A stretch of DNA of 64,000 nucleotides, from contig CALWDO010000001.1 in the NCBI GenBank assembly GCA_944376715.1, positions 124,001 through 188,000 on the forward strand, written 5' to 3'. The notes below the pieces were generated by a model. It did not search any database, was not told where the DNA came from, and worked only from the letters and a program-made list of their open reading frames with translations. The translations under genes were made by a program, and so were the position numbers. Shown one piece after another: positions 25,809 to 49,174 of this stretch (the stretch's first letter is position 1; each line of letters opens with the position of its first letter). This stretch comes from an uncultured Lachnoclostridium sp. GTDB lineage: Bacteria > Bacillota > Clostridia > Lachnospirales > Lachnospiraceae.

Positions 25809-25842
25809 AGGCATACTTCCTCATTTTCTTATAATCTTTAGT

Positions 25843-33134: not shown

Positions 33135-34337
33135 TTAATCCTGGTTTTCAATTCTCCAAAGTTCCTGGTCTTCCACATTATTTCTGTATATCTTCCACAC
33201 TCCATCCTGATAATCAAAATAAGAGTTCATCTCATCTGAATTAAATATAGATATATATGGATAAGTCCACACGGTCACACCGTTTTCCCTGTAATAATAT
33301 GCCTCGGAAACCATCGCATTTAAATTTTTGATCCCCATCACCAACGTCAGACCCAGAAAGAATGCCGCCCCTGTTTTTGCGATTTTGTCGCGTTCTGATA
33401 TCAGCAGCACAACCACCGCGCATTCCAGTACTTTAAAAATCACGCAGTACCGGCTTGCATAATAAGAGCTGCCGCACATCAGCATGTAAAAACATGTCCC
33501 GCATAAATAGGCTTTCAGAAGAAGCGTCGTCCTCTGCTCCGGCTGACCGTCCTTTCTCTTTTTCCAGAAATACAAAATCAGTATTGCCGCGGCGCTGACC
33601 AGTCTCTCCCCCACGGCAAAAAGACTTACCTCGCCGTCCAGCAGAAACTGCTTTACATGATACATAGGCAGAACATTCGTAATCAGCTGCTCCACCGCTC
33701 CTATCTGCAGGATCAGTCCTCCCGCGATAGAAAGACCGAACAAAGCAAGAATTACATACAACGGCAGATAATACACGACGGGAAGCACCAACCATGCGTA
33801 TCCAACCCGGTGGAACGAAGCCGCGATCAATACACTTACTATATACCGCACCCACTTCTTCTCCAGGTAAAACGGGACCGCAATCCCCAGGAATATGCAG
33901 ATCGCCAGTCCCTGGCGAAGCCCGGACACCAGATAGACCAGATACAATACCGGATAAGAGAGAAACAGCCCCGCTGTTCTCAAAGGAACATATTTATTCA
34001 AAAACCGATGCAAAAGCAGCATATCCGCCAGCCCCAGGGCAAAAATAAATACCCAGAACGGGGCATGGAACAGTTTGAACACCGCCGATATGAGACGCCA
34101 CCCGATCTCCGGATAAAATCCGCAGATATATCCCTGCGACAGGTCAATATAGGCCGGTATGGTTTCATAAAGCCCATGATACGTCACATAATCCGTACCC
34201 TGTCCAAAACGCAGGCACAGACAGGCGGCAGCCAGTCCCCAGCAGCACCAGTAGATATATTTTCCATACTGCGGCCGAAACCATTCCCATACTGCTCCCG
34301 CAGCAAGGATCAAAAATATGATCAAATATAAATTCAT
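33135..34337 (-). CDS. EpsG family membrane protein, probable polymerase
   Basis: This 400-residue polytopic protein resembles the EpsG family (PF14897), thought to act as Wzy-like polymerases in Gram-positive exopolysaccharide systems. Seen: an early loop with LRFGQGTDYVTYHGLY, the EPEIGW-like segment YPEIGWRLISAVFK, and SGLRQGLAICIFLG, the family's most conserved stretch. It overlaps the epimerase start by 4 bases. It would join repeat units on the outer membrane face. A different polymerase candidate lies at 59440, so the two may serve different glycans. Confidence 0.78.
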   Translation of the reverse strand: MNLYLIIFLILAAGAVWEWFRPQYGKYIYWCCWGLAAACLCLRFGQGTDYVTYHGLYETIPAYIDLSQGYICGFYPEIGWRLISAVFKLFHAPFWVFIFALGLADMLLLHRFLNKYVPLRTAGLFLSYPVLYLVYLVSGLRQGLAICIFLGIAVPFYLEKKWVRYIVSVLIAASFHRVGYAWLVLPVVYYLPLYVILALFGLSIAGGLILQIGAVEQLITNVLPMYHVKQFLLDGEVSLFAVGERLVSAAAILILYFWKKRKDGQPEQRTTLLLKAYLCGTCFYMLMCGSSYYASRYCVIFKVLECAVVVLLISERDKIAKTGAAFFLGLTLVMGIKNLNAMVSEAYYYRENGVTVWTYPYISIFNSDEMNSYFDYQDGVWKIYRNNVEDQELWRIENQD

Positions 34338-35431
34338 GCTTTTCCTTCCAAGATGTCTGCAATTCTCTTCGAGGCAAATCCATCACCGTATGGATTGCTC
34401 GCCGTACTCATTTTTCTGTAAGCTTCCTGATCTTCCAGAAGCATTTTGAAGTTCTCATAGATCGTCGTCTCGTCTGTGCCCACCAGCTTCAGGGTCCCCG
34501 CCGCGATCCCTTCGGGACGCTCGGTGGTATCCCGCATCACCAATACCGGCTTACCCAGGGACGGCGCTTCTTCCTGTATCCCGCCGCTGTCTGTCAGGAT
34601 CAGATAGCTCCTGGCCAGAAAATTATGGAAATCCAGCACGTCCAGCGGTTCTATGATCCGGATCCGTTCGTCGTCTCCCAGGATGGCCTGGGCCGTCTCG
34701 CGCACTGCCGGATTCATATGAATCGGATAGACCGCCTTGATATCCGGATGTTCGTCACAGACCCGGCGGATCGCCCGGAACATATGCTTCATGGGTTCTC
34801 CCAGGTTCTCCCTGCGGTGCGCCGTAATCATAATCAGTCGACTGTCCCCGGCCCACTCCAGAACCGGATGGGTATAATCCTTCCGTACGGTAGTCTTCAG
34901 TGCGTCGATGGCGGTATTGCCCGTCACATAGATAGTCTCCGGCTTCTTTCCCTCTTTCAGCAGATTCTCCTTCGACAATTCTGTGGGCGCGAAATGATAG
35001 GCAGCGATGATCCCCACTGCCTGTCTGTTAAATTCTTCCGGATACGGAGAATAGATATTATAAGTGCGCAGTCCCGCCTCCACATGCCCTACCGGGATCT
35101 GAAGGTAATAGCAGGCCAGAGCCGTCACAAACGTGGTAGAAGTGTCCCCGTGTACCAGCACCACATCGGGACGCACAGTCTCCAGCACCTCCCTGATCCG
35201 GTTCAGAATATTCGTCGTCACATCGAACAAAGTCTGACGGTCTTTCATGATAGACAGATCGTAGTCCGGAACCACGGAAAAAGCCTCCAGCACCTGATCC
35301 AGCATCTGCCGGTGCTGACCGGTCACACAGACTATCGTCTCTATCTCTTTTCTTGTCTTCAGTTCATTGACCAGCGGACACATCTTGATCGCCTCCGGCC
35401 TGGTCCCGAATACCAGCATTACTTTTTTCAT
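34334..35431 (-). CDS. wecB: UDP-N-acetylglucosamine 2-epimerase family (WecB/WbpI-like)
   Basis: This is a 365-residue non-hydrolysing 2-epimerase. Seen: VMLVFGTRPEAIKMCPLV at the start, VCVTGQHRQMLDQVL, VHGDTSTTFVTALA, HVEAGLRTYNIYSPYPEEFNR, ITAHRRENLGEPM, and LILTDSGGIQEEAPSLGKPVLVMRDTTERPEG read in two parts, all standard. It would interconvert UDP-GlcNAc and UDP-ManNAc, supplying the WecC-like enzyme. But WbpI, which epimerises UDP-2,3-diacylamino-uronic acids, belongs to the same family, and the neighbours are WbpA/B/E-like, so that role is equally possible. Confidence 0.85.
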   Translation of the reverse strand: MKKVMLVFGTRPEAIKMCPLVNELKTRKEIETIVCVTGQHRQMLDQVLEAFSVVPDYDLSIMKDRQTLFDVTTNILNRIREVLETVRPDVVLVHGDTSTTFVTALACYYLQIPVGHVEAGLRTYNIYSPYPEEFNRQAVGIIAAYHFAPTELSKENLLKEGKKPETIYVTGNTAIDALKTTVRKDYTHPVLEWAGDSRLIMITAHRRENLGEPMKHMFRAIRRVCDEHPDIKAVYPIHMNPAVRETAQAILGDDERIRIIEPLDVLDFHNFLARSYLILTDSGGIQEEAPSLGKPVLVMRDTTERPEGIAAGTLKLVGTDETTIYENFKMLLEDQEAYRKMSTASNPYGDGFASKRIADILEGKA

Positions 35432-35432
35432 G

Positions 35433-36521
35433 CTATCCTTCCTTCAGTTCTTTCCTGATCTGCTCTGCCAGTTTATGATTATTCTTCTCCACATGCACCC
35501 TGGAGATAAATCTGTCCACCTGTTCCGTCCACCTGCTGTAATCGCCCGCAAGCTTCCTGACCGCTGAGACATAATCGTCCGAAGCGATTCCTATGCCGTA
35601 CTTTTCACAGAGTTCCTTAAGAGGAGGATTCGTGGAAGTAAGCACCGGTATTCCCTCGTACAGGAACTCAAATATCTTCCCGCTGGCACAGTATTTATTG
35701 TTAAGATCCCGCTGATGATAGGCCACAAAACCGATCTGACAGTTCTCAATAAAATACTTCAGATGATCCTGATCCATGCGGGGCAGTATTTTCACATTCG
35801 TAAGTCTCAGTTCCCGAATTGTGGCGCCTGCCAGGATCTCGTCCTCCTCGTCATTTTCACCGACCAGAAGAAGTTCATATTTTCCGCCCAGCTCCTTCAT
35901 GGCTTCCAGCAGTTTGCCGGTAGTCCGGCTCATATCGCAGCCTGCAGTAGAAATAATACGGAATCTTTTCTCCCGGAAAAAATCTCCGTTTTCTTCCTCC
36001 ATCTGCCTCTGCTTTCCTGCCGCCGTATATTCCAGTCTGCGGATGTTTTCATAGTTCAAAGGCGTTTTCTTAAGCCCGAACATTTTTACCATGATTTTAG
36101 CCCGGAATGGATTGGCGGCGATGACCACGTCCGAATGCCTGGTAAATATTTTTTCCATGATGCAGCCGATCTTCCCCGGAATACCGGCAGCGCTCTTCAT
36201 ATCGTACAATTCTCTGCAGTCCTGTACTACATACCTGGCGCCGCAGATACCCTTTGCCAGATATCCGGGCAGGATGCCTTTCCGGTTATCGATAAAGATC
36301 AGATCCACTTTCCCCAGCCGCCTGGCCTGCAGGCAGCAGAAACGGATGAAAGCCGGATATCCATGGTCCGTATAAAGGATATGATTTTTTTCCTGCGGCT
36401 CTTCTCCGTCGGAACGGCGGGTGATATAGGTCACCTCGCCCAATTCTTTGGCGACTTTAATCAGTTCCCGAAGACGCCCATCATATTTCCAATGGTCGTA
36501 GGAAATCAACAATATCTTCAT
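35433..36521 (-). CDS. Glycosyltransferase (GT4-like)
   Basis: This 362-residue protein has a GT-B look. Seen: MKILLISYDHWKYDGRLREL at the start, VDLIFIDNRKGILPGYLAK, VVQDCRELYDM, a donor-lobe start at FRIISTAGCDMSRTTGKLLEAM, and YCASGKIFEFLYEGIPVLTSTNP with the GT4-type glutamate. The N-terminal lobe is more diverged than in the other GT4 proteins here. It overlaps the aminotransferase by 4 bases and sits next to the diamino-uronate genes, so it may transfer that sugar. Confidence 0.78.
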   Translation of the reverse strand: MKILLISYDHWKYDGRLRELIKVAKELGEVTYITRRSDGEEPQEKNHILYTDHGYPAFIRFCCLQARRLGKVDLIFIDNRKGILPGYLAKGICGARYVVQDCRELYDMKSAAGIPGKIGCIMEKIFTRHSDVVIAANPFRAKIMVKMFGLKKTPLNYENIRRLEYTAAGKQRQMEEENGDFFREKRFRIISTAGCDMSRTTGKLLEAMKELGGKYELLLVGENDEEDEILAGATIRELRLTNVKILPRMDQDHLKYFIENCQIGFVAYHQRDLNNKYCASGKIFEFLYEGIPVLTSTNPPLKELCEKYGIGIASDDYVSAVRKLAGDYSRWTEQVDRFISRVHVEKNNHKLAEQIRKELKEG

Positions 36522-37654
36522 ATATCTGCTCCTGTTTTCTCACGGATCAGCCGGATCACCTTCGCCTGGTCCTCCTCTGTCAGATACGGCGACAAAGGAA
36601 GCGCCAGCACTCTCTGACATACGTCTGACGTCACCGGGAACGTTTCTCCATACAGTCTGCATCCCGCGAACGCCGTCTGCTGGTGCATCCCTCTGGGATA
36701 ATAAATATTCGTAGGCACGCCGTGCTCCTTCAGGTATTCCTGCACTGCGCCGCGCTCTTCTCCGTCTTTTAAAAGGATACTATACTGTGCCCATCCGGAA
36801 CCATATCCCTCCGGTATCTTCGGTACTTTCACACAATCTGACAGCCCTTCCTCATACCGGGCTGCTATACGGTCCGTATCCTTCAGTTCATACTCCCGGA
36901 AAGCTTTCAGCTTTACCCGCAGTACCGCTGCCTGGAGTGTGTCCAGGCGGGAATTCATCCCGATCCGGACATTGTCATACTTGTCCGTTCCCTTTCCATG
37001 GATCCGCAGAGAACGGATCAATTCCGCCCATTCGTCATTATCCGTGAAGACGGCGCCGCCGTCTCCATAGCATCCCAGGGGCTTGGCCGGGAAAAAGGAT
37101 GTAGTCGCGATATCGCCGAAACTTCCTGCCCGTCTGCCATGGAGACTTCCTCCAAATCCCTGAGCCGCGTCTTCCAGAATATACATGCCGTAACGATCCG
37201 CAATCTCCCGGATCCGCTCATAATCTGCGGGCAGTCCGAAAAGATCCACCGCCACGATTACCCGGGGCTTCAATTTCCCTTCTGCCAGTACCGCCTGCAC
37301 CGCCCTCTCCAGACTGTCAGGATCCATATTAAAAGTGTCTTCCAGAATGTCGGTGAACACCGGCGTCGCGCCTTCATACGCCACGGTTTCGGCAGAAGAG
37401 AAGAAAGTAAAGTCCGGCACAAAGACCGCGTCTCCCTCTCCGATCCCCCATGCCATCAGAGCAAGGGTCAGTGCATCTGTACCATTACCGCAGGTAATAC
37501 AATGTTTCACGCCCACGTACTCCGCCAGCTCTGCTTCCAGCTGTGCCACCGACTTTCCTCCGATATAGGCAGACTCTTCCAGAACCTGTCCGATCGCGGC
37601 ATCCATCCCGGACTTCAACACCTGATACTGCTTTTTCAGATCACGAAATTCCAT
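36518..37654 (-). CDS. DegT/DnrJ/EryC1/StrS aminotransferase, WbpE/WlbC-like
   Basis: This is a 378-residue PLP-dependent sugar aminotransferase. Seen: EFRDLKKQYQVLKSGMD, ITCGNGTDALTLALMAWGIG, VDLFGLPADYERI, ILEDAAQGFGG and TSFFPAKPLGCYGDGGAVFT with the PLP lysine, then GMNSRLDTLQAAVL. The FFPxKPLGCYGDGGA form is characteristic of WbpE/WlbC, which put an amino group on C3 of UDP-3-keto-GlcNAcA. This agrees with the WbpB-like oxidase at 41570 and WbpA-like dehydrogenase at 42649. It follows the acyl carrier protein with one base between. Confidence 0.86.
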   Translation of the reverse strand: MEFRDLKKQYQVLKSGMDAAIGQVLEESAYIGGKSVAQLEAELAEYVGVKHCITCGNGTDALTLALMAWGIGEGDAVFVPDFTFFSSAETVAYEGATPVFTDILEDTFNMDPDSLERAVQAVLAEGKLKPRVIVAVDLFGLPADYERIREIADRYGMYILEDAAQGFGGSLHGRRAGSFGDIATTSFFPAKPLGCYGDGGAVFTDNDEWAELIRSLRIHGKGTDKYDNVRIGMNSRLDTLQAAVLRVKLKAFREYELKDTDRIAARYEEGLSDCVKVPKIPEGYGSGWAQYSILLKDGEERGAVQEYLKEHGVPTNIYYPRGMHQQTAFAGCRLYGETFPVTSDVCQRVLALPLSPYLTEEDQAKVIRLIREKTGADI

Positions 37655-37655
37655 C

Positions 37656-37886
37656 TCACTCTTCCTCTCTGATCCGCTGGATCAAGTTCCAGATCCCCTC
37701 CGCGGAATTCAGATTCTCCGGCACGATCTCCTCTGCCGGGATCTCTACCCCGAACTGATCTTCGATCTCTGCGATCAGGGTAATCACATCAAAAGACTCC
37801 AGCAGTCCGTCGTCGATCAGTTCTTTTTCTGTTTCAAAATCAATCTCAGGCTTCAGGGCCTGCAGAAGCTCCATTAATTCTTCCAT
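37656..37886 (-). CDS. Stand-alone acyl carrier protein
   Basis: A 76-residue acidic, helical protein of the phosphopantetheine carrier family. The attachment site reads DDGLLESFDVITL, with Ser about residue 31 in an E-S-F context in place of the fatty-acid type D-S-L. Such divergent sites are typical of D-alanine carrier and peptide-type carriers. It is placed between the WbpE-like aminotransferase and the decarboxylase, close to the adenylating ligase at 39138, so it most likely carries the activated amino acid or acyl group for sugar N-acylation. An internal promoter may sit upstream. A fatty-acid role is unlikely. Confidence 0.85.
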   Translation of the reverse strand: MEELMELLQALKPEIDFETEKELIDDGLLESFDVITLIAEIEDQFGVEIPAEEIVPENLNSAEGIWNLIQRIREEE

Positions 37887-37931
37887 ATTACAATCTTTCT
37901 CCTGACACTTAGTATTGTTTGCTATCAGGAC

Positions 37932-37960
37932 ATTTTATCATGCCTGCATTATGAACGCAA
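37932..37960 (-). promoter_or_regulatory. Possible internal promoter upstream of the carrier protein gene
   Basis: On the minus strand: TTGCGT at 37960-37955, a 17-base spacer, and TAAAAT at 37937-37932 preceded by TGA (extended -10). The -35 lies inside the end of the decarboxylase gene. This 62-base gap is one of the few sizeable gaps within the long operon. Confidence 0.5.
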
Positions 37961-39130
37961 GTCTTCCGTGTTCCATGGCCATGTTTCCAACGCGCCGCGC
38001 ACCAGTCTGACGCCTTCTTTTTCCCCGTAAAGGTAGATCTTCGGCATCCGGCGGCTCAGGAACAGATAGATCCCCTCTGTCACCGAATAGGCCCCGATAT
38101 TATGGAAAACCAGGTAATCCCCAATCCTTGCGTCGCAAAGCGGCAGCTTTTTCAGAAGAATATCCGCCACCGTACACAGGGAGCCATAGACCGTCCATTC
38201 CTCTTCCTTCTCCTGCTCCAGCGGATGCTGCGGGAAGTAAGAAAGGATCGGCGTCTTCATAGCCATATTCTGGCCGTAGTAATTCACATGATTGATCCCG
38301 CCGTCCACGATGCACACATTGACCGCGTCATTCCTCTTCTGGTCCATGATCTTCGTCATATAATATCCGCAGGACGCGGTCAGATAACGCCCCATCTCAA
38401 ACGTCACTTCATAAGGCCTCTTCTCCCGGAACAGTTCCATGAACGACTCCAGAAGACGCCGGTCTTCCGAAAAATCATCCTTTGTAAAATATGGTACTCC
38501 CAGCCCAGGACCGAATTCCAGTTCCCTGGTCACAAAGCCTTCCTCTTCCTTCAGACGCCGGATCAGTCCTTCTATATATTCCACTTCAGCCGCGATCTTT
38601 TTGATTACTTTCTTCTGGGTGCCTGTAAAATACTGAAGTCCGCGGATATTTACATATGGATATTTATCCCTTTCACGGATCAGCTGCCGCGCATCCTCTT
38701 CACTCATTCCAAACTGGTTGCCGCTGGTCACCCGGAGCAGGATCTCCACATGCCGTTCCAGTTCTTCCGCGCAGCAGCTCACCAGATAAAACTGACTTCC
38801 GGACTCCGCGGTATAATGTACCACGCCCTGCTCCATGGCATAGCGCACATCTTCATATTCCTTATTTACACCGGACAGAACAATTTTCTTCATATCCAGC
38901 CCGTTCTGTACACAGATATGGAATTCTCCCGGGGAACACACCTCGTACCTCTCCACATATGCGTCCAATGTCTTCACCAGAAACGGGTTTGCCTTCATGG
39001 CAAAACACAGCTTTGCAGGGCGGATCGTATCCGCGATCCACCTGGCACGCTCTGTCAGGATATCTGTATCAAATACATAAGACGGCGTATCCAGCGATAC
39101 CGCCAGTTCCCGCAGCTTTTCCTCGTTCAT
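37949..39130 (-). CDS. Fold-III PLP-dependent decarboxylase (DAP/ornithine decarboxylase family)
   Basis: A 393-residue alanine-racemase-fold enzyme. Seen: YVFDTDILTERARWIAD, LCFAMKANPFLVKTL with the PLP lysine, SPGEFHICVQNG, GLQYFTGTQKKVIKK, GPGLGVPYF for the phosphate loop, and the C-terminal LCDARIGDYLVFHNIGAYS, the Cys-Asp and Tyr of the dimer active site. True LysA has a shorter list of variants; here the gene lies between an adenylating ligase and a carrier protein, as in butirosin BtrK, which decarboxylates glutamyl-ACP. A carrier-bound amino acid is therefore the likely substrate, by analogy. A similar enzyme is at 46843. Confidence 0.82.
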   Translation of the reverse strand: MNEEKLRELAVSLDTPSYVFDTDILTERARWIADTIRPAKLCFAMKANPFLVKTLDAYVERYEVCSPGEFHICVQNGLDMKKIVLSGVNKEYEDVRYAMEQGVVHYTAESGSQFYLVSCCAEELERHVEILLRVTSGNQFGMSEEDARQLIRERDKYPYVNIRGLQYFTGTQKKVIKKIAAEVEYIEGLIRRLKEEEGFVTRELEFGPGLGVPYFTKDDFSEDRRLLESFMELFREKRPYEVTFEMGRYLTASCGYYMTKIMDQKRNDAVNVCIVDGGINHVNYYGQNMAMKTPILSYFPQHPLEQEKEEEWTVYGSLCTVADILLKKLPLCDARIGDYLVFHNIGAYSVTEGIYLFLSRRMPKIYLYGEKEGVRLVRGALETWPWNTEDLRS

Positions 39131-39137
39131 TTAAGCC

Positions 39138-40649
39138 TCACTTTCTGTACTCCGCCATCAGGGCCTTCCTGTCAATCTTGCCGTTCTTGGTCACCGGCAT
39201 ATCGTCTACCCGGTAAAACACGTTAGGAATCATAAAACGGGGCAGCTTTTCCGCCAGCCCTTCAATGATCTCTTTCGCTTCCGGCGCGCCCACATAGAAT
39301 CCTACGATCTTCGTATTTGGCTCGTCATAGATGCAACATGCGCGGGAAACCCCGTCCAATGCCTGGAACGCCGCCTCGATCTCTCCCAGTTCGATCCGGT
39401 GTCCCATATGCTTGATCTGGAAATCTTTCCGCGTCACATAATAAAGTTCTCCCCGCTCATCATAGCGTCCCAGGTCGCCAGTGCGGTAGACCGGTTCCAG
39501 ATAACGCCGGTTCAGCGGATTCTGCACAAATACCTCTTCCGTTTTCTCCCAGTTCCGGAAATATCCCAGAGCAAGCGCCGTACCCGACACGCAGATCTCC
39601 CCCAGTTTCCCCGGCTCCGTCAAAAGCCTGTCTTCTTCATCCAAAAGGAAGACTCTCTCATTCGGGAAAGCCTTCCCAATGGGCAGTACTTCATCTTCCG
39701 CGAATTCTCTGTCTACAATATAATAAGTACAGTTGCAGGTAATCTCGGTAGGTCCGTATAGGTTTACATAGAGCGCGTCCGGCAGATAACTTCTCCAATA
39801 GTTCAGATGTTTCACCGGCATCACTTCGCCGCTGAACATGACTCTGCGGATCGTCTTCGGTACTTTATACCGGAATCCTTTCAACATAGAGATGATGCAC
39901 AGCGCGGAAACAGCCCATGTAAGATTTGTCACCTTTCTGTCATCCAGGAAATCCAACAGTTTCTTCGGTACCGAGAAAAATTTCTTTGGAATCACTTCCA
40001 ATGTAGCCCCTGTCTTCAGCGCAGGGAAGATGTCTTTCACTGAGACATCAAAGTCGAAAGGCGCCTGATTGGCAATCACATCATCCCTGCCGATTCCGAA
40101 TATTCTCACAAAATGCTCCGTAAAATCGATCACAGACCGGTGGGATACGACCACTCCTTTCGGCGTCCCGGTGGAGCCCGAAGTAAAATTTGTATACAGA
40201 GGATCCACATCACAGGAAGCTTCTCTCCTGGACTTCAGCACAGTCTCACAGATCTCATGCTCCGCCAGATCCTCGGCCAACAGAATCTTTCCGGAAAATC
40301 CCAGTTCCCGCACCTTCTGTTCCAGCTTCCTGCCGGTCACCAGAACATCAGCCTCCAGGGTGGACAGGATCGTCAGGATCCGCTCCGCCGGCTGTTCCGG
40401 CTCCACCAACGAATAAAAGCAGCCTGCATAGACTGCTCCCATAAATACATTCAGTGTCCACGCCTCTTTTTCCATCAGAACCGGTACCGGCGCATTCTGA
40501 GGAAGCACTGCCGCCAGGGCACTGCCGATCCGTTTTCCGTATTCTCTGACCTGCGCATAGGTGTAGCTCTGCTCCAGGTCCTCGACCGCCGCCTTATCCG
40601 GGCACTGCGACGCGCTGCACTCCAGATAATCCAGGATATTCTGAACCAT
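39138..40649 (-). CDS. AMP-forming amino acid adenylation enzyme (DltA-like, stand-alone)
   Basis: About 500 residues from ATG 40649, which has AGGAGAG ahead; the longer frame to 40775 overlaps the next gene and is rejected. Seen: NFTSGSTGTPKGVVVSHRS (ATP loop), APFDFDVSVKDIFPAL, NLYGPTEITCNCTYY, YRTGDLGRYDERGELYYV, GHRIELGEIEAAF and the catalytic lysine in TKNGKIDRKAL. This is a free adenylation domain with no fused carrier, like DltA. It should activate an amino (or similar) acid and load it on the small carrier protein at 37656. The amino acid cannot be read by eye. The dltB partner is absent, so D-alanylation of teichoic acid is unlikely. Confidence 0.86.
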   Translation of the reverse strand: MVQNILDYLECSASQCPDKAAVEDLEQSYTYAQVREYGKRIGSALAAVLPQNAPVPVLMEKEAWTLNVFMGAVYAGCFYSLVEPEQPAERILTILSTLEADVLVTGRKLEQKVRELGFSGKILLAEDLAEHEICETVLKSRREASCDVDPLYTNFTSGSTGTPKGVVVSHRSVIDFTEHFVRIFGIGRDDVIANQAPFDFDVSVKDIFPALKTGATLEVIPKKFFSVPKKLLDFLDDRKVTNLTWAVSALCIISMLKGFRYKVPKTIRRVMFSGEVMPVKHLNYWRSYLPDALYVNLYGPTEITCNCTYYIVDREFAEDEVLPIGKAFPNERVFLLDEEDRLLTEPGKLGEICVSGTALALGYFRNWEKTEEVFVQNPLNRRYLEPVYRTGDLGRYDERGELYYVTRKDFQIKHMGHRIELGEIEAAFQALDGVSRACCIYDEPNTKIVGFYVGAPEAKEIIEGLAEKLPRFMIPNVFYRVDDMPVTKNGKIDRKALMAEYRK

Positions 40650-40671
40650 ATACTCTCTCCTGTCTTTACAT

Positions 40672-41577
40672 TTATTTCTTTTTGATTTCCAGTACCTTCC
40701 TGGCCGGATTGCCAAACTGCTTCTCACCCTCCGGCACATCCTTGATCGCCACTGCTCCGAGTCCCAGATACGCATGATCCCCGACCTCTATCCGGTTCGT
40801 CGTCACCGCCATGGGCGCTACGTACGCCTGATCGCCGATCCGGCAGTGTCCTGAGATACTGGCCTTCCCGCTGACCAGGGTCTCTTCACCGATCCGGCAG
40901 TTATGTCCCACATCTCCCAGAAGGCCAATCATGGACCCTCTTCCAAGCACGGTCGTCCTGGTGTCCCCTGCCGCCAGCACGGAACCCGCCAGCAAAAGAC
41001 AGCCATCCTCGATCACCGTTCCTGCCAGATGGGGCAGCGTCCTGCAGGCTCCGTCTTCTGTCCGGTATATATCCGCGTCTTCCACGCCTATCAGACATTT
41101 TTCACGGATCTGCACATCTCTTCCGATCCGCACATGATCTCCGATCACGGTCCCTGCTCCGATCCGGGAATTATCTCCTATCACTACATCTCTTCCAATA
41201 ACGCAGAAAGGTCCAATCTGCACATTTTCTCCTATCTGAAGATCCTCACTGAAGCAGCATCCGGCAGCCATTCTCTGCCCTACATGAGGCATAAGACATT
41301 TCAGCCTCTCCAAAAGCTCTCCATAAAGATTTTTAGGATAAGAACATTTCAGTTGTATACTGGATGGATCCAGACTTACTTCCATATCTTTTTTCGTGAT
41401 GAAAATGCATTCTTTGACCTTTTCTGCATCCTCGGACACATCATTTTTCACGAATATAATAGAATGGTCTTCCGGCGCTTCCGGATCAGACACGCCATAG
41501 ATCCTTCCTTCCAGATCCCTTCCTTCGGGAAAACCCTCCAGAAGATCCCGGATCGTGATCTCACATATCTTAAACAT
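40672..41577 (-). CDS. LpxD-like left-handed beta-helix acyltransferase
   Basis: About 301 residues from ATG 41577, with GGGAGAG just ahead. Residues ~1-100 form a separate N-terminal domain; then hexapeptide repeats: IGENVQIGPFCVIGRDVVIG, IGAGTVIGDHVRIG, and VGHNCRIGEETLVSGKASIS with the catalytic His of LpxD/LpxA-type enzymes, closing with QFGNPARKVLEIKK. The arrangement (N-terminal domain, long helix, VGHN) resembles LpxD, which uses an acyl-ACP, more than the acetyl-CoA-dependent WbpD. It neighbours a carrier protein and its ligase, so acyl-carrier-dependent N-acylation of the C3 amine of a UDP-uronic acid is inferred. A Gram-positive has no lipid A, so true LpxD is excluded. Confidence 0.8.
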   Translation of the reverse strand: MFKICEITIRDLLEGFPEGRDLEGRIYGVSDPEAPEDHSIIFVKNDVSEDAEKVKECIFITKKDMEVSLDPSSIQLKCSYPKNLYGELLERLKCLMPHVGQRMAAGCCFSEDLQIGENVQIGPFCVIGRDVVIGDNSRIGAGTVIGDHVRIGRDVQIREKCLIGVEDADIYRTEDGACRTLPHLAGTVIEDGCLLLAGSVLAAGDTRTTVLGRGSMIGLLGDVGHNCRIGEETLVSGKASISGHCRIGDQAYVAPMAVTTNRIEVGDHAYLGLGAVAIKDVPEGEKQFGNPARKVLEIKKK

Positions 41578-42649
41578 CGAACTCTCCCGCCATATCTGTA
41601 CTTTCAAAATCTTTCAACGGCAGCTTCACCGGCACGCCTTCTTTCTGGCTCTTGTAAATGGCCAGCACCAGTTCCAGGGCATTCCTTCCTGCCGCAGCGT
41701 CCACATACGGCTTCCGGTCATGTTCTATCGCGTCTATCATATCCGCATACAGACTGGTATGACCATTCCCGTAGACATTGCTGGTGGCCTCTTTAAGCCC
41801 CTTATTGGCGTCATCCCTGGCTTCTTCGTCCGCAAAGTCCCACACATCAATATTGTTCGTGGACTTTCCTCCGATCTTCACAGTTCCCTTCTCTCCGAAG
41901 ATATACAGAGTCTCTTCCAGATTCTGCGGATATACGTTGGTCGTCCCCTCTATGGTGGCAATCGCGCCGTTTTTAAACTTCACCACTGCCATGCCCACAT
42001 CCTCTGCCTCCAGGTAATGGTGGAACTGCTGACGGGTCTGTCCGTAGACTTCTTCCACTTCATCCCCGAACATCCAGCGGAGGAGATCGATGCCGTGAAT
42101 ACACTGATTCATCAGCGCTCCCCCGTCGGAAGCCCATCTGCCTCTCCAGGGAGCCTGGTCATAGTAGCTTTTATTCCTGTTCCATCTCACATGAACAGAG
42201 CCGTGGGAAAGTTTTCCGAATCTTCCTGCCTCCAGCGCTTTCCTGGTCTCCTGCACCGCGATGTTGAACCGGTTCTGATGGCAGGCGGAAACTTTCACGC
42301 CTTTCTCTTTGGAACGGCGGACAATCTCATCCGCATCCTTCATGCTCATGGCAATGGGCTTCTCGATGATGCAGTTCACTCCATGATCTATGCAATACAA
42401 AGCGATCTGTGCATGCACGCCGCTCTCTGTGGCGATCCCCACCAGCTCCGGACGTACCTCTTCCACCATTTTTCGGTAGTCTGTATATCTGGCGATAGAA
42501 GAGTCCTTCTCCAGTTCATGCTTTGCCAGCAGGTTCTCCATCTGCTGCGGATCCACGTCGCAGACCGCGGCAAATTCCAATCCGTTGTTCAATACCGCTT
42601 TTACATGATTTGTGGCGATGCGTCCGCATCCGATCAACGCGTATTTCAT
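41570..42649 (-). CDS. Gfo/Idh/MocA oxidoreductase, WbpB/WlbA-like
   Basis: This 359-residue NAD-dependent oxidase, by analogy to WbpB/WlbA, oxidises C3 of UDP-N-acetylglucosaminuronic acid. Seen: YALIGCGRIATNHVKAVL (NAD loop), ATESGVHAQIALYCIDHG, CIIEKPIAMSMKDAD with the catalytic lysine, and the WlbA-type stretch YYDQAPWRGRWASDGGALMN followed by QCIHGIDLLRWMFG. ATG 42649 is used rather than the adjacent GTG 42652; it overlaps the TGA of the dehydrogenase gene. The order WbpA-like, WbpB-like, acyltransferase is that of 2,3-diamino-uronate clusters. Confidence 0.86.
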   Translation of the reverse strand: MKYALIGCGRIATNHVKAVLNNGLEFAAVCDVDPQQMENLLAKHELEKDSSIARYTDYRKMVEEVRPELVGIATESGVHAQIALYCIDHGVNCIIEKPIAMSMKDADEIVRRSKEKGVKVSACHQNRFNIAVQETRKALEAGRFGKLSHGSVHVRWNRNKSYYDQAPWRGRWASDGGALMNQCIHGIDLLRWMFGDEVEEVYGQTRQQFHHYLEAEDVGMAVVKFKNGAIATIEGTTNVYPQNLEETLYIFGEKGTVKIGGKSTNNIDVWDFADEEARDDANKGLKEATSNVYGNGHTSLYADMIDAIEHDRKPYVDAAAGRNALELVLAIYKSQKEGVPVKLPLKDFESTDMAGEFDV

Positions 42650-43968
42650 CACAATACCTCGATATTCTCTCTGTTTTCTATGTTTTTCATGACATTCTTG
42701 GTGTCAAAGACGGCTTTTGCATGCCGCTGCACCAGTTCATAATCCACGTTGGTATGGGCCGTCGTGATCATGACCAAATCCGCGCTCTCGATCAGATCCT
42801 CCGTCAGTTCCGGCTCGCTTACGCGCTCCTGTCCCTTGAATCTGTACTGTCTGACCCAGGGATCATAATAGACCACATCCGCTCCTGTCTTTTCCAGTTC
42901 CTCGATCACGCGCAGGGCAGGGCTCTCCCGGTAATCATCGATGTCCTGCTTGTAAGCCACGCCAAGGATCAGCACTCTGGAACCGTTCAGGGATTTCCGG
43001 AAACGGTTCAGGATCTTTCCTGCCCGTTCCACACAGTATGCCGGCATCTTATCGTTAATCATCATGGAACTTTCGATCATGGAAGTATGGAATCCGTATT
43101 CCCTCGCCTTCCAGGACAGATAATAGGGATCCAGCGGAATGCAGTGGCCGCCCAGTCCCGGTCCCGGATAAAACGGCTGGAAGCCGTAAGGCTTCGTGCT
43201 GGCCGCGTCAATGACCTCCCAGATACTGATGCCCATCTCGTTGCAGAGCATCGCCAGTTCATTGATCAGGCCAATATTGATGTTCCTGTAAGTATTTTCC
43301 AGAATCTTCTCCATCTCCGCGATGGCCGGGGAAGACACCTCTTTCACATCGCCTTCCAGGACTGCCCGGTACATGGCTGCGATGACTTCCGTGGCGTCTT
43401 TGCCCACTCCGCCGATCACTTTCGGAGTATTCTTCGTCTTATAGATCAGATTGCCCGGGTCCACACGTTCCGGAGAAAATCCCAAGTAAAAATCTTCGCC
43501 GCATTTCAGCCCTGATCCTTCCTCCAGGATCGGCTTCACCAGCTCTTCTGTAGTACCCGGATAGGTAGTGGACTCCAGCACGACCATGGTGTTCTTCGTC
43601 AGATATTTTGCGATATCTCTCGTGGAGTTCCGCACACAGCTCAGATCCGGCTCCTGATGGACGTCCAGCGGCGTAGGTACGCAGATGGCGATAAAATCCA
43701 CATCCTTGATAAAGCTGAAATCCGATGTGGCGGACAACATTCCTTCTTCCACCAGACGTTTCAAGTCCTTATCTACCACATCTCCAATATAATTGTGCCC
43801 CTCGTTGACCAGCTTCACTTTGTGCGGCTGTTCATCGAAACCGATTGTCCTGAATCCGGCTTTCGCCTTCTCCACCGCCAGCGGCAGACCCACATAGCCC
43901 AGGCCGATCACACCGACTACGATCTCCTTTTTCGCGATTTTATCCAATAGTAATTGTTTCATGCCCAT
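42649..43968 (-). CDS. UDP-N-acetyl-D-glucosamine 6-dehydrogenase, WbpA-like
   Basis: This is a 439-residue nucleotide-sugar dehydrogenase. Seen: GVIGLGYVGLPLAVEKAKAG, ICVPTPLDVHQEPDLS, LESTTYPGTTEELV, FSPERVDPGN, and GPGLGGHCIPLDPYYLSW with the catalytic cysteine. The LDPYYLSWKARE form is that of the WbpA/TviB group, which makes UDP-GlcNAcA from UDP-GlcNAc, and differs from the WecC-like enzyme at 20324. It feeds the WbpB-like oxidase directly downstream, with which it overlaps at stop/start. AAAGGAAG precedes the ATG. Confidence 0.88.
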   Translation of the reverse strand: MGMKQLLLDKIAKKEIVVGVIGLGYVGLPLAVEKAKAGFRTIGFDEQPHKVKLVNEGHNYIGDVVDKDLKRLVEEGMLSATSDFSFIKDVDFIAICVPTPLDVHQEPDLSCVRNSTRDIAKYLTKNTMVVLESTTYPGTTEELVKPILEEGSGLKCGEDFYLGFSPERVDPGNLIYKTKNTPKVIGGVGKDATEVIAAMYRAVLEGDVKEVSSPAIAEMEKILENTYRNINIGLINELAMLCNEMGISIWEVIDAASTKPYGFQPFYPGPGLGGHCIPLDPYYLSWKAREYGFHTSMIESSMMINDKMPAYCVERAGKILNRFRKSLNGSRVLILGVAYKQDIDDYRESPALRVIEELEKTGADVVYYDPWVRQYRFKGQERVSEPELTEDLIESADLVMITTAHTNVDYELVQRHAKAVFDTKNVMKNIENRENIEVL

Positions 43969-43971
43969 CTT

Positions 43972-45228
43972 TTATCTTCCTTTCCTGCCCATACAAGTGT
44001 TCAGAATCTCCAGATACTGTCCTGCCAGCAAAGAATAATTATATTTTTCACGGATCTCCCTGCGTCCTCGTTCACCCATTGCCCTGCGCTCTTCCTCCGG
44101 CATCTGATATATCCGTAAAAGCGCTTCCGCAAAAGCTTTCGGATCTCCGCACGGCGTCACTATTCCTCCGCCGGATTCCTCTACCACATTGACAGAGTTG
44201 CAGGCGAATACTGTAGGAACGCCGGAATACAGATAATCATTCAGCTTATTCAGACTCAGGCCCAGATCGTTCAACACCCGGTCGTCCTTCAGCGCCGCGA
44301 TGCAGGCGCCCGCTTTGGAAAGTACGACCGCCACCTGATCCGGTTCAATCCGCCCGAAGATTTTAACATGGTCCAGTTTTTCTTTTCGAACCTTCTCTTC
44401 CATTTTCGCTCTCAGATGCCCGTCCCCGATAAAAGCAAAGTGGATCTGATCCTGTCCCATTTTCTTTAAATATGCCGCTGCGTCAATCATATCTAAAGGT
44501 CGTTCTGAGTCCACGAAACTCCCGGTGTATACCGCGCACCAGTTCTCTGTCAGATAATGTTCCATCTCTTCCGGGAGATGCACGTTGCCCGACGCCAGTA
44601 TCTGGTCAATTCTCTCCGTATGATAACCGTTAGGGATCCAGAATACACGGTCTTTTTTCACATACGGAAACTGTTTCAGATATTGGTATCCAAACTCCAT
44701 CGTCATCACAATGGCATCCGCCCTCCGATATGCCCGGCGCTCCAGCGCAGAGAACAAAAGGCATACCGGATGGTATTTGGACCATCCGTAGATCTCTATA
44801 AAAGACAGGGGCCAAAAATCCCGAATTTCACAGATAAACGGGATTTTACACTCTTTGGCAATCCTGCATGCGCTTTCCCAGGCAAACGGGTGCACAGAAG
44901 AACCGATTACTGCGTCCGGTTTTCCAAAGCGTTCATAAAATTTCTTCTCATATTTTCTCATCAGGCGGCTGTAATCCATCATATTCAGGATACGGGCGGC
45001 GCCATTGCCATGATAGGCAGGAGAAGTATGCAGCCAGACGTATGTTACGCCATCTGCCACCTTTTTTACAACTGCTTCTTTTTCATATAAATATGTCTCT
45101 CCCCGATGGCTGTAGCCGGACATAAAAACGACTACTTCCAAATCATTTTTCACAAACTCTTTCGCCAGTTCAAAGTGGCGGTCACCTTCCAGCCCGGAAT
45201 GATGATTTAATATCCACAGCTTTTTCAT
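43972..45228 (-). CDS. Glycosyltransferase family 4, WbuB-like
   Basis: This is a 418-residue GT-B enzyme of the same subgroup as that at 23201. Seen: LWILNHHSGLEGDRHFELAK, IGSSVHPFAWESACRIAK, CEIRDFWPLSFIEI, VYTGSFVDSERPLDMIDAAAYL for the donor lobe, and NKLNDYLYSGVPTVFAC. It follows the PglC-like priming enzyme (4-base overlap), so it probably adds the second sugar of the repeat unit. The sugar is not known, but neighbours make amino-sugars and diamino-uronates. Confidence 0.87.
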   Translation of the reverse strand: MKKLWILNHHSGLEGDRHFELAKEFVKNDLEVVVFMSGYSHRGETYLYEKEAVVKKVADGVTYVWLHTSPAYHGNGAARILNMMDYSRLMRKYEKKFYERFGKPDAVIGSSVHPFAWESACRIAKECKIPFICEIRDFWPLSFIEIYGWSKYHPVCLLFSALERRAYRRADAIVMTMEFGYQYLKQFPYVKKDRVFWIPNGYHTERIDQILASGNVHLPEEMEHYLTENWCAVYTGSFVDSERPLDMIDAAAYLKKMGQDQIHFAFIGDGHLRAKMEEKVRKEKLDHVKIFGRIEPDQVAVVLSKAGACIAALKDDRVLNDLGLSLNKLNDYLYSGVPTVFACNSVNVVEESGGGIVTPCGDPKAFAEALLRIYQMPEEERRAMGERGRREIREKYNYSLLAGQYLEILNTCMGRKGR

Positions 45229-45875
45229 CGTGCTACTTGCTCTTTCTGTTTTCTCGCTTCCCTTTCCTCTGCCAGATTAGACTCTACCACAGCGGTATCC
45301 ACTGCTATCCCCTCTCTGGCAAATACCTTTGCCACAGTGCATATTATAATTTTCACATCACCAAGAAATGTAATATGCTCCGCATACTGCGCGTCTAATT
45401 CCAGCCGGTCGTCCCAGGCCAGCATATTTCTTCCATTCACCTGGGCAAGCCCGGTCAGCCCCGGCATAACGCTGTGCCGTTTCTTCTCCCGTTCTGTATA
45501 ATACGGCAGATAACTGCAAAGAAGCGGCCTGGGGCCTACAATGCTCATATCACCTTTAAAAATATTAAACAGTTCAGGCAGTTCATCCAGGCTTGTCTTT
45601 CTCAAAAGACTTCCAAACGGTGTCAGACGTTTTTCATCCGGCAGCAGATTTCCATCTTTATCACATGTATTCGTCATAGTCCGGAACTTATACATTTTAA
45701 AAATCTTTTCATTTTTCCCTGGCCTCTCCTGGCAGAAAATAACCGGTTTCCCGAGCTTTACACGTACCAGTACCGCTGTCACAGCCAGCACCGGACTCAG
45801 TACCACTAACGCTCCTCCTGAAAGAACCACATCACAGGCCCGCTTCCCATATCTGGCGTATATTCCTGTTTTCAC
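45225..45875 (-). CDS. Small phosphoglycosyltransferase, PglC-like priming enzyme
   Basis: This 216-residue monotopic membrane enzyme has only the catalytic domain: KRACDVVLSGGALVVLSPVLAV, the re-entrant membrane helix; YKFRTM; the Asp-Glu dyad in SLDELPELFNIFKGDMSIVGPRP; and PGLTGLAQVNGRN. It transfers a sugar-1-phosphate from a UDP-sugar to undecaprenyl phosphate. The neighbours PglF- and PglE-like make UDP-4-amino-4,6-dideoxy-GlcNAc, so the primer is probably an acylated form of that. The GTG start at 45875 has AGAGGAG ahead and overlaps the ATP-grasp gene (GTGA). Confidence 0.9.
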   Translation of the reverse strand: MKTGIYARYGKRACDVVLSGGALVVLSPVLAVTAVLVRVKLGKPVIFCQERPGKNEKIFKMYKFRTMTNTCDKDGNLLPDEKRLTPFGSLLRKTSLDELPELFNIFKGDMSIVGPRPLLCSYLPYYTEREKKRHSVMPGLTGLAQVNGRNMLAWDDRLELDAQYAEHITFLGDVKIIICTVAKVFAREGIAVDTAVVESNLAEEREARKQKEQVAR

Positions 45876-46846
45876 GGCGCAGTCTCCTCTTTGCGCATCA
45901 TGATTTCATTATATTTCATCATGACCCATCCTTCCTCATATTCCCCGATCCGAGGAATATTTTCCTCTCCCTTAAGGTTTTGTACAATGTATGCCATATG
46001 ATTTACCCCGCATTCATACGCATGGGGATAACCGCCGCCGAAACGGGGATTCACCTCCGATATATAATATTGTCCGTCACAGTCGAAGATATCAATGTCA
46101 ATCTGCCCGGTGAATCCGCTCTCCTTTACAAATCGGCTGATCAATTCAAAGAGCTCAGAATCTTTAAAAGAGAGCCCTTTATCAGTCTCCCCGGCTCTCA
46201 TCACCAGCTTCTTTTTTGTAAAAACAGAGATCGGTTCTTTACTAATCAGATCAATATAGCAATCCGCGCCAATCTCCTGTCCCTGCAGATACTCCTGGAT
46301 CATCAATCCTTCAGAATGGGCAAACAAAAGCTCAACCGTCTCCCGGTCATATGCCTTTGAAATAGCAATGCTGGCGCTTCCACGCACCGGTTTCACAAAC
46401 ACCGGATAGGTAATAAATCCCTGATCCACATCTTTAAAAAAAGCATTCTGGTCTACATAACTCCTTGCACAGCGATAACCATGAGAAGACAGCCATTGAT
46501 ACATCTGCCACTTATCCAATGTTCTCTCGCACAATTCATAAGAAGACCCTATCACTCTGACTCCCAGCTCCCTGAACCGTTCCTCATTTTGGGCCAGCAA
46601 AGACAGCTCCGGATCAATCAGAGAAAAAACCCCGTTAATCTTCTCTTTCCGGCAAATATCCAGAATTACATCCAGATATCCGGGCTCCGTCATTCGGGGG
46701 ACAATATAATACTTATCCGCCTCATAAAGAGCAGGCGCATTTGGGCTCATGTCTGTCGCAATCACCATGCCCTCACCGGCAAGTTCTCTTTTCATATACT
46801 GTATGATTTTGTTCCGGGTTCCACAACTGAGAATCAATACATTCAT
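45872..46846 (-). CDS. ATP-grasp ligase (carbamoyl-phosphate-synthase-like fold)
   Basis: About 324 residues from ATG 46846, which has GGGAACGGAAG ahead and overlaps the decarboxylase stop. Seen: VLILSCGTRNKIIQYMKREL (Rossmann-like start), a DKWQMYQWLSSHG hinge, YPVFVKPVRGSASIAISKA (ATP loop), MIQEYLQGQEIGADCYID and the metal site DIDIFDCDGQYYISEVNPRFGG (two parts). ATP-grasp enzymes join a carboxylate to an amine. Sitting between a decarboxylase, a DegT aminotransferase and a PglC-like enzyme, it probably makes an amide on the 4-amino sugar, taking the place of the PglD acetyltransferase, which is absent. This role is inferred. Confidence 0.8.
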   Translation of the reverse strand: MNVLILSCGTRNKIIQYMKRELAGEGMVIATDMSPNAPALYEADKYYIVPRMTEPGYLDVILDICRKEKINGVFSLIDPELSLLAQNEERFRELGVRVIGSSYELCERTLDKWQMYQWLSSHGYRCARSYVDQNAFFKDVDQGFITYPVFVKPVRGSASIAISKAYDRETVELLFAHSEGLMIQEYLQGQEIGADCYIDLISKEPISVFTKKKLVMRAGETDKGLSFKDSELFELISRFVKESGFTGQIDIDIFDCDGQYYISEVNPRFGGGYPHAYECGVNHMAYIVQNLKGEENIPRIGEYEEGWVMMKYNEIMMRKEETAP

Positions 46847-48009
46847 TCTTCCGTTCCCTGCACATATTCTTTTACGCCCCATCTGCGGCGTACACAGGTA
46901 ATCCTTCCTTTATCCTCCAGATATACATCCGGGTAGTAACTGATAAACAGCGGAGACAGGCACATAGTATATGCCCCCACTTTTTCATATACGATCCGAT
47001 CGCCGCACTGCAGTGCCGGCGCATCTGTCAACTGAAACAATCGATCGTCTTCCATACAGGTAAATCCTGATATAATCTGCGTCTTTACAATCCCTTCTCC
47101 TGACCTCATCGGCTCAACGTGATAAAAATAACTTTTTTTCCTCATCAAAGGATCCACATGGATCCTGCTGCCGTCTGTGATAACAAAACGATTTCTGTTA
47201 GTTTCCTTTACATCTGTCACCGTCGTTACATATTCAATCGGAGGGCAGATCAGAGAAGTCCCCGGCTCTACAATCAGACAGGTCCGTTTAGGATCAAAGC
47301 TTTTTCTCAATATCTCCGACATTACATTCAGATAATCGTCGTATTGAGGTTTATCTGGCAGTCCGCCAAAGTATCCTCCGCCTACATCTACATAATCCGG
47401 CTCTAATTTATACTCGTCGCATATTCTACACGCCGTCTCTGCTATCGCGCGATATATATTCAGGCTTCTGGTTTTAGAGCTACAATGCAGATGAAGTCCT
47501 GCAAACCTGATTCCAGGAAGCTTTTCCAACTCACCTACGACACGGCGAAGGCTCCCATTTTCATAGTTGAATCCAAAACGTCCGCCCTCTTCTCCACCGG
47601 ATGCCTCTCCCGGACACATTGACTCCAGGTCGAAATTCACTCTCAGTCCCACATTTATGGTCTCTTCGGAATCCGCAGCCTCTTTCAACCATTCTATTTC
47701 CCTCTCTGCATCCAGATTGACAATATGTCCGGCTTTACATGCCCTTAAAAAACTTTCTTTCCCTTTTACCGGGCCATTATATATGATGTGTCTAAACCCC
47801 ATATATTCCGCGAGCTCGTATTCGTCTTCCGACACAACTTCCGCATAACAGCCATGTGCTTTCATAAAGGAAAGTACCCACGGAAGCGAATTGGTCTTAA
47901 ACGAATAACCGACCACAGAATTGGGCCAATGGCGTTTCAATGCCATATGCAGTCTGTCCATCTCTTCTTCAAGAATGCTTTGATGAATTAAATAATAAGG
48001 TGTTTTCAT
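46843..48009 (-). CDS. Second fold-III PLP-dependent decarboxylase
   Basis: A 388-residue alanine-racemase-fold enzyme. Seen: VVGYSFKTNSLPWVLSFM with the PLP lysine, EVVSEDEYELAEYMG, INVGLRVNFDLESMCPG, LHLHCSSKTRSLNIY, VDVGGGYFGGLP for the phosphate loop, VEPGTSLICP, and ALQCGDRIVYEKVGAY with the C-terminal Cys and Tyr. It resembles LysA- or carboxynorspermidine-decarboxylase-like enzymes but lies far from lysine genes. It is the counterpart of 37949 in the second sugar module and adjoins the ATP-grasp ligase. It may produce an amine or a modified amino acid for attachment to the sugar. The substrate is unknown. Confidence 0.8.
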   Translation of the reverse strand: MKTPYYLIHQSILEEEMDRLHMALKRHWPNSVVGYSFKTNSLPWVLSFMKAHGCYAEVVSEDEYELAEYMGFRHIIYNGPVKGKESFLRACKAGHIVNLDAEREIEWLKEAADSEETINVGLRVNFDLESMCPGEASGGEEGGRFGFNYENGSLRRVVGELEKLPGIRFAGLHLHCSSKTRSLNIYRAIAETACRICDEYKLEPDYVDVGGGYFGGLPDKPQYDDYLNVMSEILRKSFDPKRTCLIVEPGTSLICPPIEYVTTVTDVKETNRNRFVITDGSRIHVDPLMRKKSYFYHVEPMRSGEGIVKTQIISGFTCMEDDRLFQLTDAPALQCGDRIVYEKVGAYTMCLSPLFISYYPDVYLEDKGRITCVRRRWGVKEYVQGTEE

Positions 48010-48022
48010 ATATCCTCGTTTT

Positions 48023-49156: not shown

Positions 49157-49174
49157 ATCTATGCCTCTTTTCCA

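Follow-up and report, generated by a model that had tools for sequence, protein, structure and literature searches.

Diamino-uronic acids are known to be built along the Wbp pathway of Pseudomonas aeruginosa, a route of five steps involving WbpA, WbpB, WbpE, WbpD and WbpI (PMC10622841; this and the other articles are cited from parts of their text). The window analysed here, a whole stretch of 64,000 nucleotides from an uncultured Lachnoclostridium sp. (contig CALWDO010000001.1, positions 124,001 to 188,000), carries a block of nine adjacent genes on the minus strand at 34334-43968, which encodes homologues of the same 6-dehydrogenase, 3-dehydrogenase, 3-aminotransferase and 2-epimerase. The cluster differs from the Wbp pathway in that the place of WbpD is taken by an LpxD-like enzyme accompanied by a ligase, a decarboxylase and a carrier protein, here called the trio. 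With a confidence only a little above even, we favour the view that the cluster builds a diamino-uronic nucleotide sugar whose 3-amine receives a carrier-decarboxylated amino acid instead of acetate.

The cluster resembles the butirosin proteins BtrI, BtrJ and BtrK in that a carrier stands beside a fold-III decarboxylase whose substrate is, or here would be, an amino acid attached to that carrier, and BtrK is the top solved relative of the decarboxylase. BtrJ, however, is an ATP-grasp ligase, whereas the window encodes an adenylation enzyme of the non-ribosomal peptide synthetase (NRPS) type, and the final acceptor and the transferase are not alike. The VinN/VinL/VinO and AfcQ/AfcK/AfcP systems share with the cluster a free adenylation enzyme, a stand-alone carrier and an on-carrier pyridoxal phosphate (PLP) decarboxylase (PMC11284099, PMC12186527), but they serve polyketide or lipopeptide assembly and not sugars, and the K330/R331 pair and short loop of VinN are absent here. 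The Dlt system (DltA-D), which D-alanylates teichoic acids, also combines an NRPS-like ligase with a carrier, and its MBOAT and SGNH partners have counterparts in relatives of the cluster; a decarboxylase is added in the present case. Models linked to XrtA/PEP-CTERM exopolysaccharides are matched by the ligase (TIGR03098, 195 bits) and the decarboxylase (TIGR03099, 159 bits) far below their cut-offs of 592 and 478. Among the open-licence papers listed in literature searches, none showed by its title and abstract opening a glycan pathway with this gene set or a Dlt-like operon with a decarboxylase, and term searches of PMC1569441, PMC2907700 and PMC13059722 found nothing on the trio. The parts and the on-carrier chemistry are already known; what did not come up in these searches is their proposed use on a nucleotide sugar and, in relatives, their pairing with MBOAT and SGNH genes.

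The sugar pathway and its conserved neighbourhood

Read along the plus strand, the genes follow each other as 2-epimerase, glycosyltransferase, WbpE-like aminotransferase, carrier, decarboxylase, ligase, LpxD-like enzyme, WbpB-like and WbpA-like dehydrogenase. The first-pass annotation had described seven of them at 36518-43968, and all seven are present there on the minus strand, their families matched by profiles or solved relatives; the pathway also takes in the downstream glycosyltransferase (35433-36521) and the 2-epimerase (34334-35431). The positions given then hold, apart from two starts that had to be moved. For the ligase, ATG at 40649, behind GGAGAG, is likelier than 40775 and keeps residues 43-545 of the longer reading, and for the LpxD-like gene ATG at 41577, also behind GGAGAG, is likelier than TTG at 41607. 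The gene spacing is operon-like, with overlaps of 4-8 bases (WbpA-like/WbpB-like, WbpB-like/LpxD-like, aminotransferase/glycosyltransferase) and gaps of 22 (LpxD-like/ligase), 7 (ligase/decarboxylase), 62 (decarboxylase/carrier) and 1 (carrier/aminotransferase) bases. Promoter-like patterns (11 found, 9.8 expected) and terminator-like patterns (10 found, 8.2 expected) were at chance level.

The WbpA-like UDP-N-acetylglucosamine (UDP-GlcNAc) 6-dehydrogenase (42649-43968) scores 438 bits against TIGR03026 (cut-off 190). The WbpB/WlbA-like 3-dehydrogenase (41570-42652), an oxidoreductase of the Gfo/Idh family, has 3q2k and 3q2i, which we take to be WlbA, as its top solved relatives (254 and 232 bits), and matches the UDP-GlcNAc 3-dehydrogenase model NF040723 at 125 bits, under the cut-off of 450. 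The WbpE-like 3-aminotransferase of the DegT family (36518-37654) matches PF01041 at 340 bits, 4qgr at 395 and WbpE (3nu7) at 297, and the WecB/WbpI-like UDP-sugar 2-epimerase matches TIGR00236 at 526 bits (cut-off 210). The WbpA-, WbpB- and WbpE-like set of the first-pass annotation is borne out by these profiles and solved relatives, and enzymes of the WbpA, WbpB, WbpE and WbpI types stand together in one cluster, the combination by which a Wbp pathway is recognised. The glycosyltransferase has sub-cut-off matches only, among them a weak group-1 match.

No WbpD orthologue was found in the 13 of 17 genus genomes that were searched, the window's own included, which upholds the earlier statement that WbpD is missing; weak matches of 43-52 bits occurred in four of the 13. 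The query was a protein from another genus (L159), read as WbpD-like from its sequence and gene place; its counterparts in L160 and L165 share 72-76% identity with it. In four other genera the same query gave three strong matches (369 bits for the query itself, 281 and 265).

Conservation of the core within the genus shows that this is not a chance cluster. All 16 other genomes of the genus have the decarboxylase (69-96% identity); in one of them it is split over two contigs, and this genome was left out when the 15 genus neighbourhoods were fetched. The decarboxylase of a relative, Lachnoclostridium sp. An196, is 96% identical. One stop codon lies inside the reported decarboxylase match in 8 of the 16, but the stop-free stretch is 385-393 residues long in all 15 neighbourhoods, so those stops sit at the gene end. 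The LpxD-like enzyme, ligase, decarboxylase, carrier, aminotransferase, glycosyltransferase and WbpB-like gene occur in a single order in all 15, the glycosyltransferase always adjoining the aminotransferase, and the five genes from the LpxD-like enzyme to the aminotransferase are found together in each of these genus neighbourhoods, a search for co-occurring genes in other genomes being among the checks put forward in the first-pass annotation. The WbpB-like gene is in two pieces in L042 and cut at the contig end in L035. The 2-epimerase is present in 14 neighbourhoods, L042 ending before it and L035 holding a 56-residue piece at the contig end, and the WbpA-like 6-dehydrogenase lies within the fetched stretch in only 6 of the 15. 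In seven, decarboxylase and carrier are set apart by an extra gene of some 1.2-1.6 kb; of the five inserts read, that of L039 encodes a GtrII-type membrane protein (PF14264, 200 bits), those of L040, L042 and L044 are similar to it, and that of L033 is a GDPD-type gene on the opposite strand.

Proposed loading and decarboxylation on the carrier

The fold-III PLP decarboxylase (37949-39130), of the Orn/DAP/Arg decarboxylase family, has BtrK as its top solved relative (112 bits, against 101 for diaminopimelate decarboxylase) and, like BtrK and 6knh/6knk, has Cys-Thr in its loop, whereas 4xg1, a diaminopimelate decarboxylase, and the genome's own LysA have Cys-Glu; the BtrK-like assignment of the first-pass annotation is upheld on both counts. 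The Cys-Thr loop is found in 81 of 81 decarboxylases. The 6knk structure is SbnH, and BtrK, SbnH, FigC, AcsE and MccE form a subfamily with citryl, nucleotide or carrier conjugates as substrates (PMC7857480). A role in the lysine pathway was considered and rejected: the genome has a separate Cys-Glu homologue with 25% identity, and the LysA model TIGR01048 is matched at 163 bits, slightly above the TIGR03099 score but under its cut-off of 298. The stand-alone carrier protein of 76 residues (37656-37886) matches PF00550 at 25 bits (cut-off 21) and the DltC model at 34 bits (cut-off 68), and carries Ser at the expected attachment site in 27 of 27 aligned rows.

The ligase (39138-40649) is a free adenylation enzyme, matching TIGR01733 at 326 bits (cut-off 317) and the DltA model at 303 bits, under its cut-off of 476. 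Its pocket reads D-V-K-T-M-S-L-C-N, with the positions set by eye against what we take to be those of GrsA, and corresponds to no substrate code known to us. A term search of PMC12283262 met no word starting with DVK or DAK. The pocket is well conserved among 77 ligases including that of the window (Asp235 in 74, Val236 in 70, Lys239 in 74, Trp279 in 76, Ser301 in 72, Cys330 and Asn331 in 71 each), and at position 278 all 13 ligases from loci with the LpxD-like gene (the LpxD type, below) have Thr, where most of the others have Ile. The basic Lys239 would suit a substrate with a second carboxylate, and not free 4-aminobutyrate (GABA) or beta-alanine.

We propose that the ligase activates an amino acid, most likely Asp or Glu, via the side-chain carboxylate and loads it on the carrier, where the BtrK-like decarboxylase would strip the alpha-carboxylate to leave a beta-alanyl or 4-aminobutyryl thioester. 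If loading comes first the attachment must be by the side chain, because fold-III PLP decarboxylases need a free alpha-carboxylate; for this reason side-chain loading is taken as the likelier direction. Loading followed by decarboxylation on the carrier, as the first-pass annotation envisaged, has three published precedents. BtrK turns Glu on BtrI into a GABA thioester (PMC7857480), AfcP decarboxylates Asp on the carrier AfcK while AfcQ does not activate beta-Ala (PMC12186527), and 3-methyl-Asp is loaded on VinL via its side chain in the VinN/VinL/VinO system (PMC11284099).

Several observations weigh against this proposal, some concerning the donor, given here, and some the transfer, given below. 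The signs of beta-activation in VinN are a shortened beta13-beta14 loop, K330/R331 and bulkier residues at 236 and 301 (PMC11253843). The ligase of the window has C330/N331 instead, by positions set by eye, and its alignment with LgrA has no gap where the loop would be shortened; V236 and S301 are present. By its scores against solved enzymes (TycA 223, DltA 206, IdnL1 201, HitB 191 and CmiS6 188 bits) it appears no nearer to beta-amino-acid enzymes than to DltA or TycA. LgrA at 369 bits was discarded as a close relative, since this score sums two domains of 173 and 194 bits. The margin of BtrK over diaminopimelate decarboxylase is only 11 bits.

The lack of VinN-type signs would also fit a reversed order leading to the same product, in which the free amino acid is decarboxylated and the ligase loads the ready omega-amino acid, and enzymes acting on free amino acids do exist among fold-III decarboxylases. 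We regard this order as improbable in view of the Cys-Thr loop common to BtrK and SbnH, of the lysine retained in nearly all ligase pockets and of the precedents AfcQ/AfcP and VinN/VinO, where loading comes first (PMC12186527, PMC11284099). DltA-like loading of the alpha-carboxylate, with the PLP enzyme epimerising the thioester or beta-decarboxylating it to an alanyl thioester, would draw on DltA standing among the nearest solved relatives of the ligase and on the Dlt-like partner genes seen in relatives. It is given still less credence and seems very improbable, as the loop Cys, typical of fold-III alpha-decarboxylases, is invariant in all 81 sequences and we know of no fold-III beta-decarboxylase.

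The LpxD-like enzyme and the trio in relatives

Transfer of the acyl group to the sugar would most likely be the task of the LpxD-like enzyme (40672-41577), a predicted hexapeptide-repeat N-acyltransferase whose VGHN segment, pointed out in the first-pass annotation, is present and invariant in 14 of 14 aligned sequences. In the proposed pathway the uronic acid would be made from UDP-GlcNAc and converted to the 3-keto and then the 3-amino form, the LpxD-like enzyme would move the acyl group from the carrier onto the 3-amine of UDP-GlcNAc3NA, and the 2-epimerase and then the glycosyltransferase would act after this step. The resulting sugar would be zwitterionic, combining its acid function with a free amine carried on a short arm.

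The top solved relatives of the enzyme are LpxA and LpxD, and the points that count against its proposed role begin with its scores: 127 and 119 bits against the two LpxD models lie below the cut-offs of 207 and 242.5, besides 100 bits, also sub-cut-off, against LpxA. A structure model made from 14 close sequences is poor (mean predicted local distance difference test, pLDDT, of 60), and with this low-confidence model LpxD entries rank first at E 5e-3, none reaching E 1e-3 or better. Matches at E 1e-15 or better (25-32% identity) were obtained in 10 of 298 further genomes from the family, each standing for one genus; the trio stands beside the relative in none of these ten, and a trio-type decarboxylase is found elsewhere in the genome in two. 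One of them, L162, has a set of dehydrogenase, oxidoreductase, LpxD-like enzyme and aminotransferase without the trio, and no WbpD orthologue in its genome (best match 49 bits, elsewhere), and in L159, L160 and L165 the LpxD-like enzyme adjoins WbpD; these settings, too, count against the proposal. Since the donor is not readable from sequence in this enzyme family, it is the constant gene linkage within the genus that carries the case for a carrier-bound donor.

By reading, the LpxD-like enzymes of L156, L157, L158, L161 and L163 lie near LmbE-type deacetylase genes, the one neighbour tested of the five matching PF02585 at 106 bits; the two genes are possibly a deacetylate-and-reacylate pair that swaps a sugar N-acyl group. 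A carrier gene (PF00550, 33 bits) lies near the LpxD-like enzyme of L156, and a similar small gene in L161 gave no Pfam match.

The first-pass annotation did not notice how widely the trio occurs: as described here for the first time, ligase, decarboxylase and carrier recur together as a module in many genomes, in most cases close to MBOAT-SGNH genes. Outside the genus, 43 genomes of the family gave a decarboxylase match above 200 bits in 11 cases, and in ten of these the trio is together, the contig of L050 coming to an end. LpxD-like, WbpB-like and WbpE-like genes were not found at these trio loci, and in eight of the eleven (L048-L051, L053, L054, L056, L057) MBOAT-looking and GDS-type genes follow the trio by reading. 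The trio of L055 has a thioesterase gene in between, a ligase in two pieces and a 2-epimerase with 82% identity; an asparagine-synthase-like protein at this locus scores 63 bits against an XrtA amidotransferase model (cut-off 817).

When named genomes were scanned, at least 569 relatives came up, and the closest 80 loci (L061-L140) were kept. Of these, 76 have the ligase no more than 7 kb away and 72 the carrier; an MBOAT gene is nearby in 48 (46 with SGNH), 13 are of the LpxD type, having the LpxD-like enzyme together with sugar genes, and 19 have neither, although only 9 of the 19 have at least 4 kb on both sides. The 13 LpxD-type loci belong to genomes already counted in the genus set, so that the two counts are not independent. 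None of these 13 stretches contains an MBOAT or SGNH match, and no LpxD-like match was found in the remaining stretches of the closest 80. In a tree of 82 decarboxylases the LpxD type forms one clade (100/100), neighboured by a group of eight (five MBOAT, three neither; 88/82), while the very long branch of the LysA outgroup leaves the root unsure. A single recruitment of the trio into the sugar cluster would fit this tree, which does not prove the direction.

The MBOAT proteins end in Tyr-x-x-Phe in 48 of 48 cases and in Phe-x-Tyr-x-x-Phe in 33 of 48. Tyr-x-x-Phe is an acyl-shuttle motif known for DltX and PatA (PMC12148441); the loci differ from Dlt in that it lies on the MBOAT itself. The ending FLYFSF is also found on an MBOAT of the window's genome that is unlinked to the trio, so the motif is not specific to the module. 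Against the DltB model TIGR04091 four trio-linked MBOATs score 135-166 bits (cut-off 375) and the unlinked one 151, and against solved DltB the scores are 94 and 89 bits. As the models do not separate DltB from the AlgI/PatA type, these partners are called MBOAT, and Dlt-like by context only. The model of an SGNH partner (pLDDT 85) matches SGNH hydrolases, DltD first appearing at rank 44; NCBIfam gave no match for the two partners tested against it, nor did Pfam for three. The ligase pocket and the decarboxylase loop are largely common to both classes of loci, which probably means one acyl group and two transfer machines. Operons of ligase, decarboxylase, carrier, MBOAT and SGNH occur in Lachnospiraceae and in some Erysipelotrichaceae records, and operons of the MBOAT type are possibly a decarboxylating, Dlt-like system of surface acylation.

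These loci lend substance to an alternative in which the LpxD-like enzyme is a plain acetyl-CoA-dependent 3-N-acetyltransferase, a WbpD analogue, and the product of the trio goes to a different acceptor, for example the finished polymer by way of the unlinked MBOAT, in the manner of the relatives. The genome has one MBOAT, beside a GDSL-type gene (PF13472, 67 bits), a neighbour that lowers our confidence in the carrier-bound donor and raises it for the acetyltransferase. Each of the 17 genus genomes has 1-5 stretches matching the DltB model, none above cut-off, and four genus MBOATs score 376, 349, 247 and 229 bits against a profile of trio-linked MBOATs, the window genome's own scoring 241. 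The frequency of MBOAT genes at the closest 80 loci, the sugar set of L162 and a match of the LpxD-like protein to the NeuD/PglB/VioB acetyltransferase model (97 bits, cut-off 161) point the same way. Against this stand the separation of the genome's MBOAT from the trio, the place of the trio amid the sugar genes at all 15 genus loci, the 13 LpxD-type loci free of MBOAT and SGNH matches, and an identity of only 27% between the L162 enzyme and that of the window, and we consider the alternative unlikely, though the most serious of those weighed. Of the strict reading in the first-pass annotation, what stands is that the trio and the LpxD-like enzyme are constantly linked across the genus, while the want of VinN signs, the L162 set and the genome's own MBOAT-SGNH pair tell against it.

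Returning to transfer from the carrier, the two classes of loci may be joined in the idea, to which we give somewhat less than an even chance, that one portable donor module feeds two unrelated machines: MBOAT-SGNH pairs acting on extracellular polymers and, in one genus, a cytoplasmic LpxD-like enzyme acting on a nucleotide sugar. Gut Lachnospiraceae would then share a beta-alanyl or GABA group, which in the LpxD-like branch would yield a zwitterionic diamino-uronic polysaccharide, a consequence we hold just as tentatively.

Neighbouring genes and implications

Upstream of the pathway lies a GT4 glycosyltransferase (43972-45228, minus strand) with PF13439 and PF00534 matches above their cut-offs. 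Further along the minus strand, the region 45225-51034 contains a second homologue of fold-III decarboxylases (46843-48009; LysA 145 and FslC 136 bits, both sub-cut-off) along with an ATP-grasp protein resembling carbamoyl-phosphate synthase (45872-46882; 513 bits over a cut-off of 271), a LegC-like aminotransferase (384 bits, cut-off 420) and sub-cut-off matches for a 4,6-dehydratase-like protein and a sugar phosphotransferase. The genes of this region may form a parallel route, based on ATP-grasp chemistry, in which the N-acyl group placed on a 4-amino sugar comes from a decarboxylated amino acid. Genes at 20324-25814, again on the minus strand, suggest that the window may hold two polysaccharide clusters: they encode another nucleotide-sugar dehydrogenase (441 bits against TIGR03026; 371 bits as UDP-ManNAc type, under the cut-off of 459) and another sugar phosphotransferase of the initiating kind (339 bits against a cut-off of 296). 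An anti-phage system was dismissed, PADLOC giving 0 hits on four core proteins.

Free amines on surface glycans are tied to charge, resistance to cationic peptides and immune recognition. If the proposed chemistry is true, the cluster would be a route by which gut bacteria set free amines on their surface glycans, and it would join the on-carrier decarboxylation of natural-product pathways with surface glycan assembly. A single donor module would have been re-used by two unrelated acyltransferases, and many Lachnospiraceae, including records under the names Dorea phocaeensis, Faecalicatena contorta and Lacrimispora, are predicted to have a decarboxylating relative of D-alanylation.

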